Shown here piece after piece: positions 14,769 through 19,611 of a stretch of DNA of 24,839 nt. Positions within the stretch are counted from its first letter, which is position 1, and each line of letters begins with the position of its first letter. Position numbers and translations under genes: made by a program. Under the pieces are notes generated by a model that searched no databases, had not been told where the DNA came from, and saw only the letters and a list, made by a program, of their open reading frames with translations. This DNA is from a virus: positions 1-24,839 of IMG/VR virus record IMGVR_UViG_3300042541_001447. The stretch is one strand, 5' to 3'.

Positions 14769-16364
14769 TTATACTGTTTCAATTATTCCGTATTTTTCTA
14801 CTTTTGTTTTTTCTGAATGACAAGTTTTGCAAATCGCTTGTAAATTGTCAACTGTATTTTTACCACCATTAGCAATAGGTATAATATGGTCTACGTCAAA
14901 TTCTCTATTATCATTTAATTCAATTTCACAAATATTACAATTATAAGATTGACTTGAAGCAATTGCTGAACGTTCCATTTCTGAAAAAGAATATCTATTT
15001 GAATTATCTTTAAAATTAGAATGTTTATCTACAAAAATTATTCTTCCATTTGCTCTTGACATTGCTACATACATTAATTGATTAACGTCTTGAGGATATC
15101 TATTTGCATAATCATAAATTGGAATTATAACATCATTATAAGTACTTCCTTGACTTTTATGTGAAGTAATAGCAAAAGGCTTTTTAAGTGTCGCAAAACC
15201 TAGTTTTAAATCATTATACTTTGTATTTAATTCTGCTATTTGCTTTTGAAGTACAAATTTATATTTATTACCTTCATTTAACTTTTCAATCTCTTTTTTT
15301 ATTTTTCCAACTACTTTATCAATTCTGTATTTAATAGGGTACAAAGTATTTTGATAACCATTACCAACATAAATAATAACACTAACTCCACTTTCTTTTT
15401 TAACTAATATTTTTTTATAATTAAATTTAGCAATTTCATTTGTGTATATTTCTTTTTCTTCTTCAACAAAATTTTCAATATCAATTATCTCAACTGTTTC
15501 TGAAGTATAAAACTTTTCGTTTTCTCTTGAATAAAAACCATCAAAAAAAACAATATCCCCTATATTTAATTCATTTACTTTATATCCTAAATTATTTGAT
15601 TTTGTAGAGCCTATTAACCAGTTAAAAGAAAGACAAGTTAAATTTTTAAAGCATACCGCAATTGGATTTTGTCCTTTAATTATTTGCCTGAGTTCTTTTG
15701 AATTATTATTATAAAAAAGAATATCATTATCATTTTTATATTTTTTAGCCATTTTATCAAAGTTAATTTGAAGGTGCATATTTTCTCTGAATTTTTTAAT
15801 TAATTCTTTTAAATCTGTACCATCTTTTTGTCTTTGCTGAATAGTTAACTCGGTGCAATAATCAAATTTATTGAAAATTTTACTCACTTTAAAACCCATA
15901 CTATCTCGTTCAAATTCATCTTCAATAGGGGGTATTTGTCTATTATCCCCTATTAAAATAAACTTTCTTTTGTTTTTTAACTTCATTAATAATTCAAAAC
16001 ATTCATTATTTATTAAAGATATTTCATCAATAATTATAATTTTTGGAATGTCCTCTAATTTTGGCAGTTTTCTTTTAGTAATTGTTCTGTTGTTATGGTC
16101 TTTTATCATTTTAAAACCTAAAAAACTATCTATTGTTTTTGCTTTAAAATTTGTTTCTCCATCTTTTATTAGTTGTTTTTTTAAATTACCAACTACTTTA
16201 TTAGTTGCACCTAAAAAAATTGCTTTTGAAACGTCTATTGATTTGCAAATAGTATAAGTTTTCCCAGTTCCCCCAGCTCCAATTACACCAAAAAACCCTT
16301 TTTCATTACCATCTACAAAATTAATTAATTCATTTTGTAATTCTTGTTGTTCTTCGTTTAACAT
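14769..16364 (-). CDS. SF1 (RecD/Dda-like) DNA helicase fused to an HNH endonuclease domain
   Basis: This 531-residue protein has superfamily 1 helicase motifs in order: Walker A GAGGTGKT (29-36), Walker B IIIDEISLIN (110-119), motif III LIGDNRQIPP (137-146), 'IQQRQ' (175-179), the RecD/Dda-like SHKSQGST (401-408) and YVAMSRA (432-438). After residue 470 a complete zinc-containing HNH nuclease follows: CNIC (476-479), VDHIIPIANGG (491-501), an Asn-Leu-Gln segment, and CKTCHSEKT (512-520). The first part would unwind DNA at the phage replication fork. The second could nick or cut DNA. The fusion is in one frame with no stop. It follows the primase-helicase gene by 7 nt. Confidence 0.9.
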   Translation of the reverse strand: MLNEEQQELQNELINFVDGNEKGFFGVIGAGGTGKTYTICKSIDVSKAIFLGATNKVVGNLKKQLIKDGETNFKAKTIDSFLGFKMIKDHNNRTITKRKLPKLEDIPKIIIIDEISLINNECFELLMKLKNKRKFILIGDNRQIPPIEDEFERDSMGFKVSKIFNKFDYCTELTIQQRQKDGTDLKELIKKFRENMHLQINFDKMAKKYKNDNDILFYNNNSKELRQIIKGQNPIAVCFKNLTCLSFNWLIGSTKSNNLGYKVNELNIGDIVFFDGFYSRENEKFYTSETVEIIDIENFVEEEKEIYTNEIAKFNYKKILVKKESGVSVIIYVGNGYQNTLYPIKYRIDKVVGKIKKEIEKLNEGNKYKFVLQKQIAELNTKYNDLKLGFATLKKPFAITSHKSQGSTYNDVIIPIYDYANRYPQDVNQLMYVAMSRANGRIIFVDKHSNFKDNSNRYSFSEMERSAIASSQSYNCNICEIELNDNREFDVDHIIPIANGGKNTVDNLQAICKTCHSEKTKVEKYGIIETV

Positions 16365-16371
16365 TTATTTT

Positions 16372-18732
16372 TTAATTAGTTTTTATTTCAAAATATCTTC
16401 CTTTTTGATCTCTATTTTTTTCAAAATCATACCCTTTGTAATCGCAATACTCTCGCACCCACTTCATAAAATCACGTGGACTTAATTCTTTATAGTTTTT
16501 ATATTCCTGAAGAAACAAAGCGACAATATCAACTGTGTAAATTCTTGTATTAATCACTAAATTTCCCTCTTCAGTCCAGTCAAAGAAGTCTTTTGTCGAA
16601 CCTTGAATAAATCTTTTTGCATTACCATTTATTGAAATTGTTTTTACCAAGCCTTCATTTAAAAACATTTGCAAATTATTAATAAAATAGTTGTCAAATT
16701 TATTCCAATCATTTACATTCCAACTATCAAAAAGTAATCTACCATATTCAGAAAGTGGACTTCTTTTATTATTAAAATACTGAAAAAATTCGATTTCGTG
16801 TCTTCTTCTTTCGTGTGAGCTTCCTATTCCATTAATTACATAATTAGTTGTTATTATAATTTTAGGAGATCGTTCAAACGGAATAAATATCTCATCTTTA
16901 TTTTTTCGATTAACTGTTATTCCTTCAGTAATTAAAGAAAATAATTGTTCAAAATTAAAGTTCTTTTTAACATCATCAAAAGAAAGTATTTGAGTATCTA
17001 AATTAACACGTTGGTAAACAAAATCTGACTTCTTAGGATCAAAAGATTTACCATCTATTTTAATTAATTTTCTAAAATTTGAAAGTGAAGTTAAAACTAA
17101 ACTTTTTCCACTTCCCCCGTTTGGGTTGTCATCAATTTCTTGGTCATTAAATATAACCGCCTTTTGGTCTGTTTTATCTTTATAAGTGTGAATTAAATAA
17201 CCTAATGTTAGTTCTAATGACTTTGTTCTTTCATCATCATTTGCACTTACTTTTCGTATAAAATCTTGAAAGTCATTTGTAAAATCGCTTACTTTTTTAA
17301 ATTCTCTATTTATAATTTGATTTTCCCAAATATACCCATCTACATCAATAAAATTAAGAAGTTCCGTATTGTTTGCAGTAACTTTAACAACTCCATTTTT
17401 AAAAGGAATATAAGCGGTGTCTTTTTCATCTGCTAACATTTTTAAGTAAATACTATCAATCATATTTAAATGACTTTCAGTAAACAAATAAGGACTTTTT
17501 GAACAATAGTTCCATACATTTATTAAACCCCTTTCAAGTAAATAATTTAATACAAAATCTTTTATTTGAGCAACTGAAGAAAGATTTACTTTATTTTCTT
17601 TTACCCTTACAAATGTTGGATTTTCTGAAGTTTCAGGATAGTATTTATTAAACCCATTCTTTACCAAAAATGAAGAATATTTAAATGGTTCTATTGTTAT
17701 TGTTTCACCACCGTTTTTATTAACTTGAATATTCCAGAATATATCTTCAGATTCAACTAACTGAAATTTAATTTCGTTAATTACTTCTTTGTCAACATTA
17801 AGTTGTTTTTGAATGTCCTCTAAATTTATTCCACTTTTTATTTTATTTTGTATTGTTTTAATTGTAGAAAAATCCTCAAAATATTTACTATCAAAATTTG
17901 TCTTTCTATAAGCTGAACGAATAGTGTTTACAGTTTCTGTTTCTGAAAAATCACCAATAACAACATTGTTAAAAATATATCCTTCCGCAGTGTCTTGACT
18001 GATTCCATATTCTGAAAATGACATTGCTAATTTTAAAATGTAGTTGTTTCTATTACCTTCTTCAAAACCACCTTTAAAATCAAATTTCATTATTCTTTCA
18101 ATTATTTTTCTCTCATCTCTTAAAATAATTGAAGGCACTTTTTCAGAATAAGTAAACCCTTTTTCTTCTTCTATTTCTGTAAACTCTTCACAAAATTGAT
18201 TTAAATAAATTTCAGGGTCATAACTTTCAAAACATACCCTTGAAACATTACAGTTCTTCTCATCAAAATAATCACTTTCAAAATACTTTCTAAAAGCATT
18301 AAATCTTCTTTTATGTTCTAATTTATTACTTTTTGGAATACGAATTAAAGCCTTTAACCCATTACCACTTGGAGAAGTAAAAACCATTAAAACGTGCTTA
18401 TCATTTATCAATTTTTCACGTTCTTCATTCATTATCTCCAAAGAAGGGTACTTATCAAAATCTAAAACACAACAACCTGAATGTTCTTCTAATGAATTAT
18501 CTGTTCTTTCAATAAAAACACCGTTAAACATAATAGCTAGTAAACTATTTTTAGTATTACTTCTTAGGTCTTTATCTGGACTTGTTCTAATTATATTTAT
18601 CTTATCAATTAAAACTGGATTCCCTATTTTTATACGTTCGTAAACATCTGTTATTGTTAAACTAAACGGAGTATCTTTAGCATTAAATAAATTTTTAAAT
18701 ACACTAACTTTTGTATTAAATGGTTCTTTCAT
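16372..18732 (-). CDS. primase-helicase (VirE-N/AEP-like primase plus SF3 helicase)
   Basis: This 786-residue replication protein begins with a BT4734/VirE-N-like archaeo-eukaryotic-primase domain. It has VLDFDKY (89-95, the catalytic D-x-D), 'FTSPSGNGLKALIRI' (118-132) and 'CNVSRVCFESYDP' (161-173). A helical PriCT-like linker lies around 206-254, with 'EEGNRNNYILKLAMSFSEYG'. The C-terminal SF3/D5-like ATPase has Walker A NPNGGSGKS (536-544), Walker B ILSFDDV (582-588), motif C KIIITTN (624-630) and basic residues ERRRHEIEF (641-649). It probably loads at the phage origin, primes and unwinds DNA. A candidate origin lies about 0.7 kb upstream. It starts one base after the stop of the preceding gene. 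Confidence 0.9.
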   Translation of the reverse strand: MKEPFNTKVSVFKNLFNAKDTPFSLTITDVYERIKIGNPVLIDKINIIRTSPDKDLRSNTKNSLLAIMFNGVFIERTDNSLEEHSGCCVLDFDKYPSLEIMNEEREKLINDKHVLMVFTSPSGNGLKALIRIPKSNKLEHKRRFNAFRKYFESDYFDEKNCNVSRVCFESYDPEIYLNQFCEEFTEIEEEKGFTYSEKVPSIILRDERKIIERIMKFDFKGGFEEGNRNNYILKLAMSFSEYGISQDTAEGYIFNNVVIGDFSETETVNTIRSAYRKTNFDSKYFEDFSTIKTIQNKIKSGINLEDIQKQLNVDKEVINEIKFQLVESEDIFWNIQVNKNGGETITIEPFKYSSFLVKNGFNKYYPETSENPTFVRVKENKVNLSSVAQIKDFVLNYLLERGLINVWNYCSKSPYLFTESHLNMIDSIYLKMLADEKDTAYIPFKNGVVKVTANNTELLNFIDVDGYIWENQIINREFKKVSDFTNDFQDFIRKVSANDDERTKSLELTLGYLIHTYKDKTDQKAVIFNDQEIDDNPNGGSGKSLVLTSLSNFRKLIKIDGKSFDPKKSDFVYQRVNLDTQILSFDDVKKNFNFEQLFSLITEGITVNRKNKDEIFIPFERSPKIIITTNYVINGIGSSHERRRHEIEFFQYFNNKRSPLSEYGRLLFDSWNVNDWNKFDNYFINNLQMFLNEGLVKTISINGNAKRFIQGSTKDFFDWTEEGNLVINTRIYTVDIVALFLQEYKNYKELSPRDFMKWVREYCDYKGYDFEKNRDQKGRYFEIKTN

Positions 18733-18733
18733 A

Positions 18734-19249
18734 TTATCTTTGGCTTAAAACTTGGTTTATTAAATCTTCAATTTCTTCTTGTGTATTTTCTTTAATTACT
18801 GCATCATAAAATCTACTGAAATAATGAAAATAATATTGACTTCTGTAATACTCTCTAGTGCATTCATCTTCAAGTTCAAAATTAAATCTAATAAAGTAAT
18901 CTTTTGTAAAATCTACTCTATGCTTTACGGCTAATAATGATCTTAATTTTTTAATGTGTTTGTTAATGTCCCAGTCATTAAAGGCATTATCTAAAGCATT
19001 TGACAACTCTTTTAATGTTACCATTTCATCACCATAAAAATAACCACATCTATTTAATTCTTTATGAAAAGGATTTAAGTATAAAAATACTTTACTTTCT
19101 TCATCGTAAAAAATTGTCTTGGGTTTTTTAAACTTAACAAGTTTTCTAACTTGTTTTTGATTTACCAGCTCAATAAAAGCATTAAAATCAATTCTAGGAA
19201 GATTATCTATCTTCGCTAATGTTTCTTCTGAAATTTCTTTCACTACCAT
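18734..19249 (-). CDS. hypothetical protein leading the replication operon
   Basis: This 171-residue charged protein starts MVVKEISEETLAKIDNLPRI. A basic stretch (about 33-44, QVRKLVKFKKPK) precedes a beta-like 'TIFYDEESKVFLYLNPF'. The second half is helical and aromatic ('RFNFELEDECTREYYRSQYY' then FHYFSRFYDAVIKEN). I recognise no family. It is the first gene after the leader with two hairpins and a terminator (19254-19340), and is followed by the primase-helicase with a single-base gap. Helicase loading or initiator accessory work is suggested only by this position. Its start codon lies 12 nt after the terminator hairpin, so its expression is probably governed by that element. Confidence 0.6.
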   Translation of the reverse strand: MVVKEISEETLAKIDNLPRIDFNAFIELVNQKQVRKLVKFKKPKTIFYDEESKVFLYLNPFHKELNRCGYFYGDEMVTLKELSNALDNAFNDWDINKHIKKLRSLLAVKHRVDFTKDYFIRFNFELEDECTREYYRSQYYFHYFSRFYDAVIKENTQEEIEDLINQVLSQR

Positions 19250-19253
19250 AAAT

Positions 19254-19303
19254 AAAAAAACCTATTAAGATTTCGAGGGCAAGGTCTCTACTTTCTTAAT
19301 AGG
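19254..19303 (-). terminator. intrinsic terminator or attenuator just before the replication operon
   Basis: A perfect 10-bp stem (19294-19303 with 19261-19270, CCTATTAAGA/TCTTAATAGG) is followed on the minus strand by seven U (19260-19254) and then, 4 nt later, an ATG at 19249. A small inner 3-bp stem (19275-19277 with 19286-19288) presents an 8-nt loop. A terminator directly before a start codon suggests attenuation rather than the mere end of a transcript. Confidence 0.75.
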
Positions 19304-19345
19304 AATTATTTTAATTTCTTAAACGTGCCTTGCCAACACGATAAC
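19254..19345 (-). ncRNA. structured leader or small RNA with kissing-loop complementarity
   Basis: Hairpin 1 (19340-19324) is CGTG/CACG with the loop TTGGCAAGG. Hairpin 2 is the terminator hairpin, whose inner loop is ACCTTGCC. The 7 nt GGCAAGG (19334-19328) and CCTTGCC (19284-19278) are fully complementary, five of the seven pairs being G-C, in very AT-rich surroundings. A kissing interaction is therefore possible. A promoter candidate ends only a few bases upstream, so the RNA would start close to hairpin 1. It would end after about 80-90 nt at the U run, or read through into the replication operon. The pairing is seen in the sequence; the function is inferred. Confidence 0.5.
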
Positions 19346-19452: not shown

Positions 19453-19611
19453 CATATATTCGCCACATAAAAACCACTATAACTATTTTAAAATCAATTA
19501 ATTACATATATCTGCCACCACAAACGCTTTTTTTTAGGGGTACCCCTTTGTTTTTTGTTTTACTCAATAGTTGGTATATAAGAGGTATGAGGTTTATGTG
19601 GCTAAATATAT
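19453..19611. repeat. three related 20-bp repeats in gene-free DNA (candidate origin or operator)
   Basis: Copy A (19453-19477) reads CATATATTCGCCACATAAAA on the plus strand. Copy B (19504-19526) is a direct copy with CATATATCTGCCAC. Copy C (19590-19611) is inverted, its minus strand reading ATATATTTAGCCACATAAAC. The shared core is ATATAT-n-GCCACATAA. Copies A and C bracket a 12-bp palindrome and AT-rich DNA, 200-360 nt upstream of the first replication gene. Copy C overlaps the last codons of the lipoprotein gene. Iteron-like repeats next to AT-rich DNA and upstream of a primase-helicase suggest an origin. A repressor-binding operator is the alternative. Confidence 0.5.
19536..19547. repeat. 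12-bp palindrome AGGGGTACCCCT
   Basis: This is a perfect 12-bp palindrome with a GC-rich core, flanked on both sides by T-rich plus-strand DNA. It lies between repeat copies B and C. Its dyad symmetry suits a dimeric DNA-binding protein. A plus-strand hairpin would have only a 4-bp stem, so a terminator is less likely. Confidence 0.5.

Follow-up and report, generated by a model that had tools for sequence, protein, structure and literature searches.

A predicted kissing-loop leader RNA with variable loop pairs at the head of replication genes in Bacteroidota phages

The immunity of phage N15 is of the same kind as that of phage P4, with its CI RNA and the segments seqA, seqB and seqC. In P4, the CI RNA pairs with seqA and seqC, so that transcription of the P4 replication genes stops too early (PMC4825925), and in the attenuation of pT181 a kissing hairpin is used, whose loop and upper stem set the specificity (PMC3753616). 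A leader with complementary loops was predicted in a viral DNA stretch of 24,839 nucleotides (hereafter the window; IMG/VR virus record IMGVR_UViG_3300042541_001447), in which the gene order is almost entirely minus-strand. This leader (19345-19254, minus strand) stands directly before the replication operon, with a methyltransferase operon on its upstream side. What had been observed in the original prediction was confirmed and proved larger than claimed, and its interpretation was supported in part. All elements of the leader are present on the minus strand:

19352-19345, minus strand: predicted -7 promoter box of the Bacteroidota type, TATTTTTG, recognized by sequence directly 5' of H1
19340-19324, minus strand: hairpin H1, CGTG-TTGGCAAGG-CACG, which folds
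19334-19328, minus strand: X, kissing loop 1, GGCAAGG, complementary to X' at all 7 nt
19323-19304, minus strand: linker TTTAAGAAATTAAAATAATT, 20 nt, from leader comparison
19303-19261, minus strand: hairpin H2, CCTATTAAGA...GAG-ACCTTGCC-CTC...TCTTAATAGG, which folds
19284-19278, minus strand: X', kissing loop 2, CCTTGCC, complementary to X at all 7 nt
19260-19254, minus strand: U7 run, intrinsic-terminator-like by sequence, 3' of H2
18734-19249, minus strand: first operon gene, 171-aa protein, an orphan without family match
16372-18732, minus strand: primase-helicase, 786 aa, matching BT4734-like_N, PriCT_1 and phrog_28855
14769-16364, minus strand: Dda-like helicase, 531 aa, fused to a C-terminal HNH endonuclease domain, by domain matches

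The two hairpins with perfectly complementary 7-nt loops, GGCAAGG and CCTTGCC, were found again both by coordinates and by folding, and the leader lies, as had been claimed, 5' of the replication operon, with a terminator-like H2 and a U run ending 4 nt (spacer ATTT) before the ATG of the first operon gene at 19249-19247. H2 consists of a 10-bp outer stem, an internal loop, a 3-bp inner stem GAG/CTC and the apical loop ACCTTGCC carrying X'; together with the U7 run it has the G+C-containing stem followed by a U run of an intrinsic terminator. Both hairpins were recovered in the minimum free energy fold, with a moderate z of -2.2 against shuffles, and when the window leader was dinucleotide-shuffled 5000 times, 7 of the shuffles contained a G+C-rich complementary 7-nt pair (at least 5 of 7 positions G+C) at the same distance. 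A descriptor combining promoter, pair and terminator gave 24 matches in 0.69 Mb of related loci versus 6 in 3.43 Mb of shuffles. Taken alone, the window leader is suggestive only; the question was decided by its relatives, from which the predicted structure, with its hairpins and kissing pair, appears near certain.

The RNA is predicted to start at or just before H1, from the -7 box TATTTTTG, and a TANNTTTG box was present 7-15 nt 5' of X in all complete leaders belonging to the large subfamily, and outside it in almost every leader. The consensus-like promoter of the E. coli type, which had been proposed to end at H1, was not borne out, the Bacteroidota -7 box fitting better: a sigma70-like TTGGCA-17-TAAAAT was rejected as the main promoter because its start would fall downstream of H1, so that H1 would be missing from the RNA; transcription probably does not use this E. 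coli-like promoter.

More than 100 viral contigs show the same leader anatomy, as do cultured phages of Flavobacterium, Cellulophaga and Olleya, and it was located at the head of replication genes in all cases checked. The modules headed by it included the primase-helicase, a DnaD-like loader with a helicase, and the operons of the elemo, mumin and Cellulophaga phages. Close relatives of the 171-aa protein were present in six viral loci and those of the primase-helicase in at least 80, and the gene behind the leader varied among relatives from the orphan and small genes to a DNA methyltransferase, an HNH-like gene or the primase itself. The HNH-like gene followed the leader directly in L020, L024, L035, L039, L043, L046, L051, L062, L064 and L140, and its start resembles, as judged by eye only, the NUMOD4 homing endonucleases (IPGF..YQVSNLGRVKS). 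Many primase-helicase relatives with 64% identity had no leader near the primase and carried GTGACGAT-like repeats in its place. Numerous iteron- or origin-like ATCGTCACG/CGTGACGAT repeats were also seen around the primase-helicase of L027, L029, L051, L080 and L083, most of which were without the leader. In the window itself, the region 19453-19605 between the methyltransferase operon and the leader contains the repeats CATATATTCGCCAC/CATATATCTGCCAC, the inverted repeats TTCGCCACATAAA/TTTATGTGGCTAA and the palindrome AGGGGTACCCCT, with similar sequence in L010-L012, and may represent a candidate replication origin.

Alignment of the same locus in related phages, which had been proposed as a check, revealed compensatory loop changes both between the window type and L004/L007 and within a second group of leaders, subfamily B. 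The loops of L002 and L003 were identical to those of the window, while L004 and L007 had GTCGAGA in the H1 loop and TCTCGAC in the H2 loop: 3 of the 7 positions differed from the window, each on both sides, despite approximately 91% identity between the two types over 300 nt behind the leader. The X labels ACTTCTAC/ACATCTAC in this comparison of loop types are misread types; the identities are valid. Other perfectly matched pairs were found in L005 (GCCTGAGAA), L010 (GTCGGAAAAC), L011 (GCGTGGAA), L012 (CATCCTAC) and L013 (GCTCTCACA). For the window's own subfamily the support consists of such individually listed pairs, and MAFFT misaligned H1 across nine sequences. The window linker appears to share ancestry with the AAGG-TATTATT linker seen in other subfamilies. 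The matches of a first broad pattern scan were mostly due to chance and were discarded.

Subfamily B was collected with a motif of linker and H2, in which only the first two bases of X' were fixed and H1 was unconstrained. The motif yielded about 90 leaders, and the 53 that were distinct once related loci had been added were analyzed on alignment A2. The kissing helix was paired in 98.6% of the cells versus 74.1 ± 1.5% in shuffles, and its covariation reached 0.637 versus 0.209 ± 0.019 in shuffles, never exceeding 0.099 when the partners were slid, with double (compensatory) changes at five of the eight pairs. The four helices together were 99.3% paired, with 305 double-change cells against 98 ± 9 in shuffles; the H1 stem (double changes at 4/5 pairs), the outer H2 stem and the inner H2 stem all covaried, G-U pairs included. 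The shuffle statistics retain the kinship among the 53 sequences, and an artefact of relatedness is argued against by the control with slid partners as well as by the independent loop types. A change of one loop without the other, named in the original prediction as evidence against it, was not seen in 52 of the 53 leaders. The mosaic-like exception, L281 (3374-3468), has the only truly mismatched pair, with H1 of the CCTTCGAC type and H2 of the CATCCGAC type, and looks like a recombinant or a chimeric assembly. The remaining unpaired cells were due to L293, which is offset by one in the alignment.

These results bear on the reading of the locus as a DNA-level element (operator or origin repeats) merely resembling RNA hairpins. 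The origin-like repeats adjoining at 19453-19605 would fit it, but covariation of the kind expected of RNA pairs, G-U included, is seen in three stems as well as in the loop-loop helix, and a transcription start box stands before and a U run after the structure, so that a DNA element can be given hardly any probability; a DNA operator was rejected on the stem covariation.

About 29 distinct loop pairs were recognized across the family, and among the 27 tabulated loop types the median duplex energy was -11.4 kcal/mol for cognate versus -1.3 kcal/mol for foreign loops. The U run was retained in most relatives and was weak in L005, L010, L011b, phi18:3, FCV-1 and phi10:1; with a weak U run in several lineages, termination may not be the common function. 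Two leaders with similar but distinct codes were present in L011 (at 2479 and 3889), GCGTAGGA before an HNH-like gene and GCGTGGAA before the primase, and a possible extra leader type, GCGTT-ATGCAAC-AACGC with X' GTTGCAT, was seen before a DnaD-like gene in L176 (13437-13541). In subfamily B the linker (AAGGUAUUAUU) and the loop tail (A-NN-AUA) were conserved amid freely variable stems and loops, as would be expected if the folded RNA bound a factor. This would suit an attenuator acting in cis only, in which kissing within one nascent RNA tunes the terminator, perhaps via a phage or host protein on the linker and loop tails, and the loops drift freely if they remain paired; a linker of 15-21 nt, as reasoned from the sequences, would let H1 reach the tip of H2.

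Free drift in cis does not, however, predict the exchange of whole alleles. L292 and L304 were 98-100% identical over roughly 400 nt on the upstream side of the leader and 700 nt on its downstream side, with only 72% identity in the leader, where H1, X/X' and the inner and outer stems were all changed in paired fashion; a contrast of the same kind, with a divergent leader in near-identical flanks, was observed in L039/L268 and in L310/L312. The Cellulophaga phages phi13:2, phi46:3 and phi19:3 shared 92-100% identity with phi18:3 over 49 nt up to the promoter, beyond which the leader was different. Nor are a type-matched third copy of X outside the folded leader and the presence of several loop types among the phages of one host predicted by such drift, and action in cis only is considered possible but doubtful. 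The allele swapping could also reflect recombination among abundant alleles, without selection for new types.

The third X copy (6-7 nt), which matches the type of its own leader, was found in 16 of the 80 leaders just behind the U run, adjoining the start codon. It was scored as a match of at least 6 nt within 50 nt of the U run, a criterion that foreign X sequences satisfied in 0.45% of comparisons. At the start of one and the same gene the sequence is ...ACTTCGACAATGGCAAAAGAC when a CCTTCGAC leader precedes it and ...ATATTTGCAATGGCAAAAGAC when the leader is of another type. The third copy was absent from the window and from most loop types. The possibility that the leader is a stand-alone small RNA gene with another target, the operon being read from another promoter or by antitermination, draws on the complete set of promoter, 5' hairpin and terminator and on the variable first gene behind it. 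It is nevertheless unlikely, because the leader heads replication genes wherever checked, often a few nt from the start codon, because X varies between phages, which leaves no fixed external target, and because X is repeated at the start codon of the operon in some types. As a separate observation, Flavobacterium phage laban6-1 (L343, MN812211; 13230-13081, minus strand), a temperate phage of the same host with a different genomic context, has X TGCGAAAAGA and X' TCTTTTCGCA in a terminator-like hairpin, with X repeated at an ATG and the last match reaching approximately 16 nt; this element could be a related or a convergent RNA control.

Direct BLAST of the window and of one subfamily-B leader against GenBank phages gave no match, and the cultured carriers were reached via protein matches followed by DNA similarity. 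A scan of annotated phages around the replication genes yielded elemoE_10-3D and phi18:3, and similarity to their flanks and leaders yielded the further carriers:

Flavobacterium phage elemoE_10-3D: X GTGGAGG, by replication-gene scan
Cellulophaga phage phi18:3: X CTTCTGAC, by replication-gene scan
elemoA_7-9A: X TGAGAGC, by DNA similarity
elemoA_2-5C: X GTGAGATG, by DNA similarity
Olleya phage Harreka_1: X GTGGTGG, by DNA similarity
morran9-1: X GTGAGAAG, by DNA similarity
filifjonk9-1: X GTGAGACG, by DNA similarity
mumin6-1: X GTGGAACG, by DNA similarity
phi13:2, phi46:3 and phi19:3: X CTCTCACAA, by DNA similarity
F. columnare phage FCV-1: X GTAGAGAG, by DNA similarity
phi10:1: X GTACGAC, by DNA similarity

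A perfect loop pair was present in all of the cultured phages located through DNA similarity (11/11). Weaker matches in PTm1 and a crAssphage covered only the AT-rich promoter-like stretch, with no leader seen, and were rejected. The H2 motif of elemoE and Harreka_1, GTAGAG/TTAGAG-X'-CTCGAAA, is that of the window (general form GTAGNG-X'-CNCGAAA). The subfamily-B model matched phi18:3 with an E-value of 6.5e-7 and mumin, filifjonk and phi13:2 with E-values of 0.02-0.05, and the leaders of subfamily B and of the cultured phages are therefore likely to form one family. In mumin, filifjonk and morran, the two kinds of loop (10-nt AAGTGAGANN and the longer NNTCTCACANNA) were on opposite hairpins compared to subfamily B. 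Several loop types coexisted among phages of one host. Rapid paired loop change among otherwise near-identical phages might also be driven by a host defence recognizing the RNA, from which phages escape by changing the loop and keeping the fold. We know of no host sensor of such RNA, the types recur across phages (CTCTCAC-like in contigs and Cellulophaga phages) instead of scattering, and the third X copies would be left unexplained, which makes this explanation highly improbable.

The carrier phages appear to be mostly virulent. None of 13 virus records, comprising the window with 12 relatives and including some fragments, matched PF00589 (Phage_integrase), and mumin-type phages, in which no lysogeny genes were found, have been described as only lytic (PMC7077304). 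The leader pattern gave 20 matches in about 85,000 genomes, all of them chance matches in coding sequence, and a covariance-model search of 395 Bacteroidota genomes, run with strict filters and no positive control, detected no leader; a prophage origin was rejected on these grounds. Lysogen immunity, the setting of P4, is thus probably not applicable, and effects of the leader would probably be exerted during lytic growth and co-infection.

The reading preferred here, to which a probability of about 0.5 is assigned, is that the leader serves both as an attenuator and as a self-recognizing small RNA restraining the replication genes by negative feedback; within it, attenuation is likely and action in trans plausible. 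The replication operon would be governed by a leader RNA some 90 nt long, transcribed from an early promoter of the host type, with H1 folding at the 5' end of the transcript and H2 bringing the complementary loop, followed by the U run in most relatives as well as in the window. Some transcripts would end behind H2 as a stable small RNA, and the remainder would proceed into the primase-helicase genes. X and X' could kiss within one RNA or between RNAs sharing the loop type, the latter because the terminated RNA holds both loops; the same RNA could also satisfy both loops by pairing them in cis, at the expense of the action in trans. More phage templates would then give more leader RNA, and all templates sharing the type would yield less full-length replication mRNA; the effect would come about through termination, and also through a block of translation wherever a third X adjoins the start codon. 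Phages with a different loop type would escape, which would explain the ready swapping of types. Sensing of copy number, one of the two inputs suggested earlier, is compatible with this scheme, while no evidence pointed to sensing of a phage protein. Loop-pair allelic diversity, the third X at the start codon of some relatives and the occurrence in cultured phages and before replication modules unrelated to one another had not been part of the original prediction.

More tentatively, virulent Bacteroidota phages may carry a type-specific incompatibility made of RNA only, whereby the leader RNA of a resident would silence the replication operon of a co-infecting phage with the same code, and codes would diversify by allele swapping. 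If true, this would mean RNA "immunity groups" without lysogeny. The loop code covaries and is swapped between near-identical phages, and cultured sets with different codes exist on one host (mumin, filifjonk and morran on Flavobacterium LMO6/LMO9; elemoA and elemoE on BAL314), which allow questions of copy control, co-infection and superinfection exclusion to be put to direct test in virulent phages. The natural orthogonal kissing pairs are also usable as regulators.

No description of the family was found in the open-access literature searched. An Rfam scan of the window and its relatives with 4227 families, including Flavo-1 and Bacteroidales-1, gave no match at the gathering score, and at E ≤ 1 the leader gave nothing above chance-level noise; it resembles Flavo-1 and Bacteroidales-1 as an RNA structure of Bacteroidota, but differs from them in having no covariance-model match. 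It shares H2 and the U run with intrinsic terminators, and differs from plain ones in the inner stem of H2, in the loop pairing with H1 and in the weak U run of several lineages. As with the P4 CI RNA, a short RNA would be produced from a leader that precedes a replication operon encoding a primase-helicase, complementary segments lie on the same strand of that leader (X/X' in all, X-X'-X in 16 of 80), and the proposed output is premature termination of the operon. In contrast to P4, which is temperate and whose RNA is processed from the leader, the carriers appear virulent, without signs of lysogen immunity by integrase search, genome searches and the mumin literature; here the RNA would be a primary transcript ended by termination, and the pairing is loop-loop. 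With the pT181-type attenuators and other kissing-loop copy control (pMU720) the leader shares kissing hairpins with type-specific loops, specificity in the loop and upper stem and, as proposed here, transcription attenuation controlling a replication gene; unlike in the pT181 type, where an antisense RNA transcribed from the opposite strand acts as partner, both loops are placed on one sense RNA. The leader appears to represent an undescribed structured-RNA family of Bacteroidota phages and a variant of kissing-loop replication control outside the P4 and pT181 systems.
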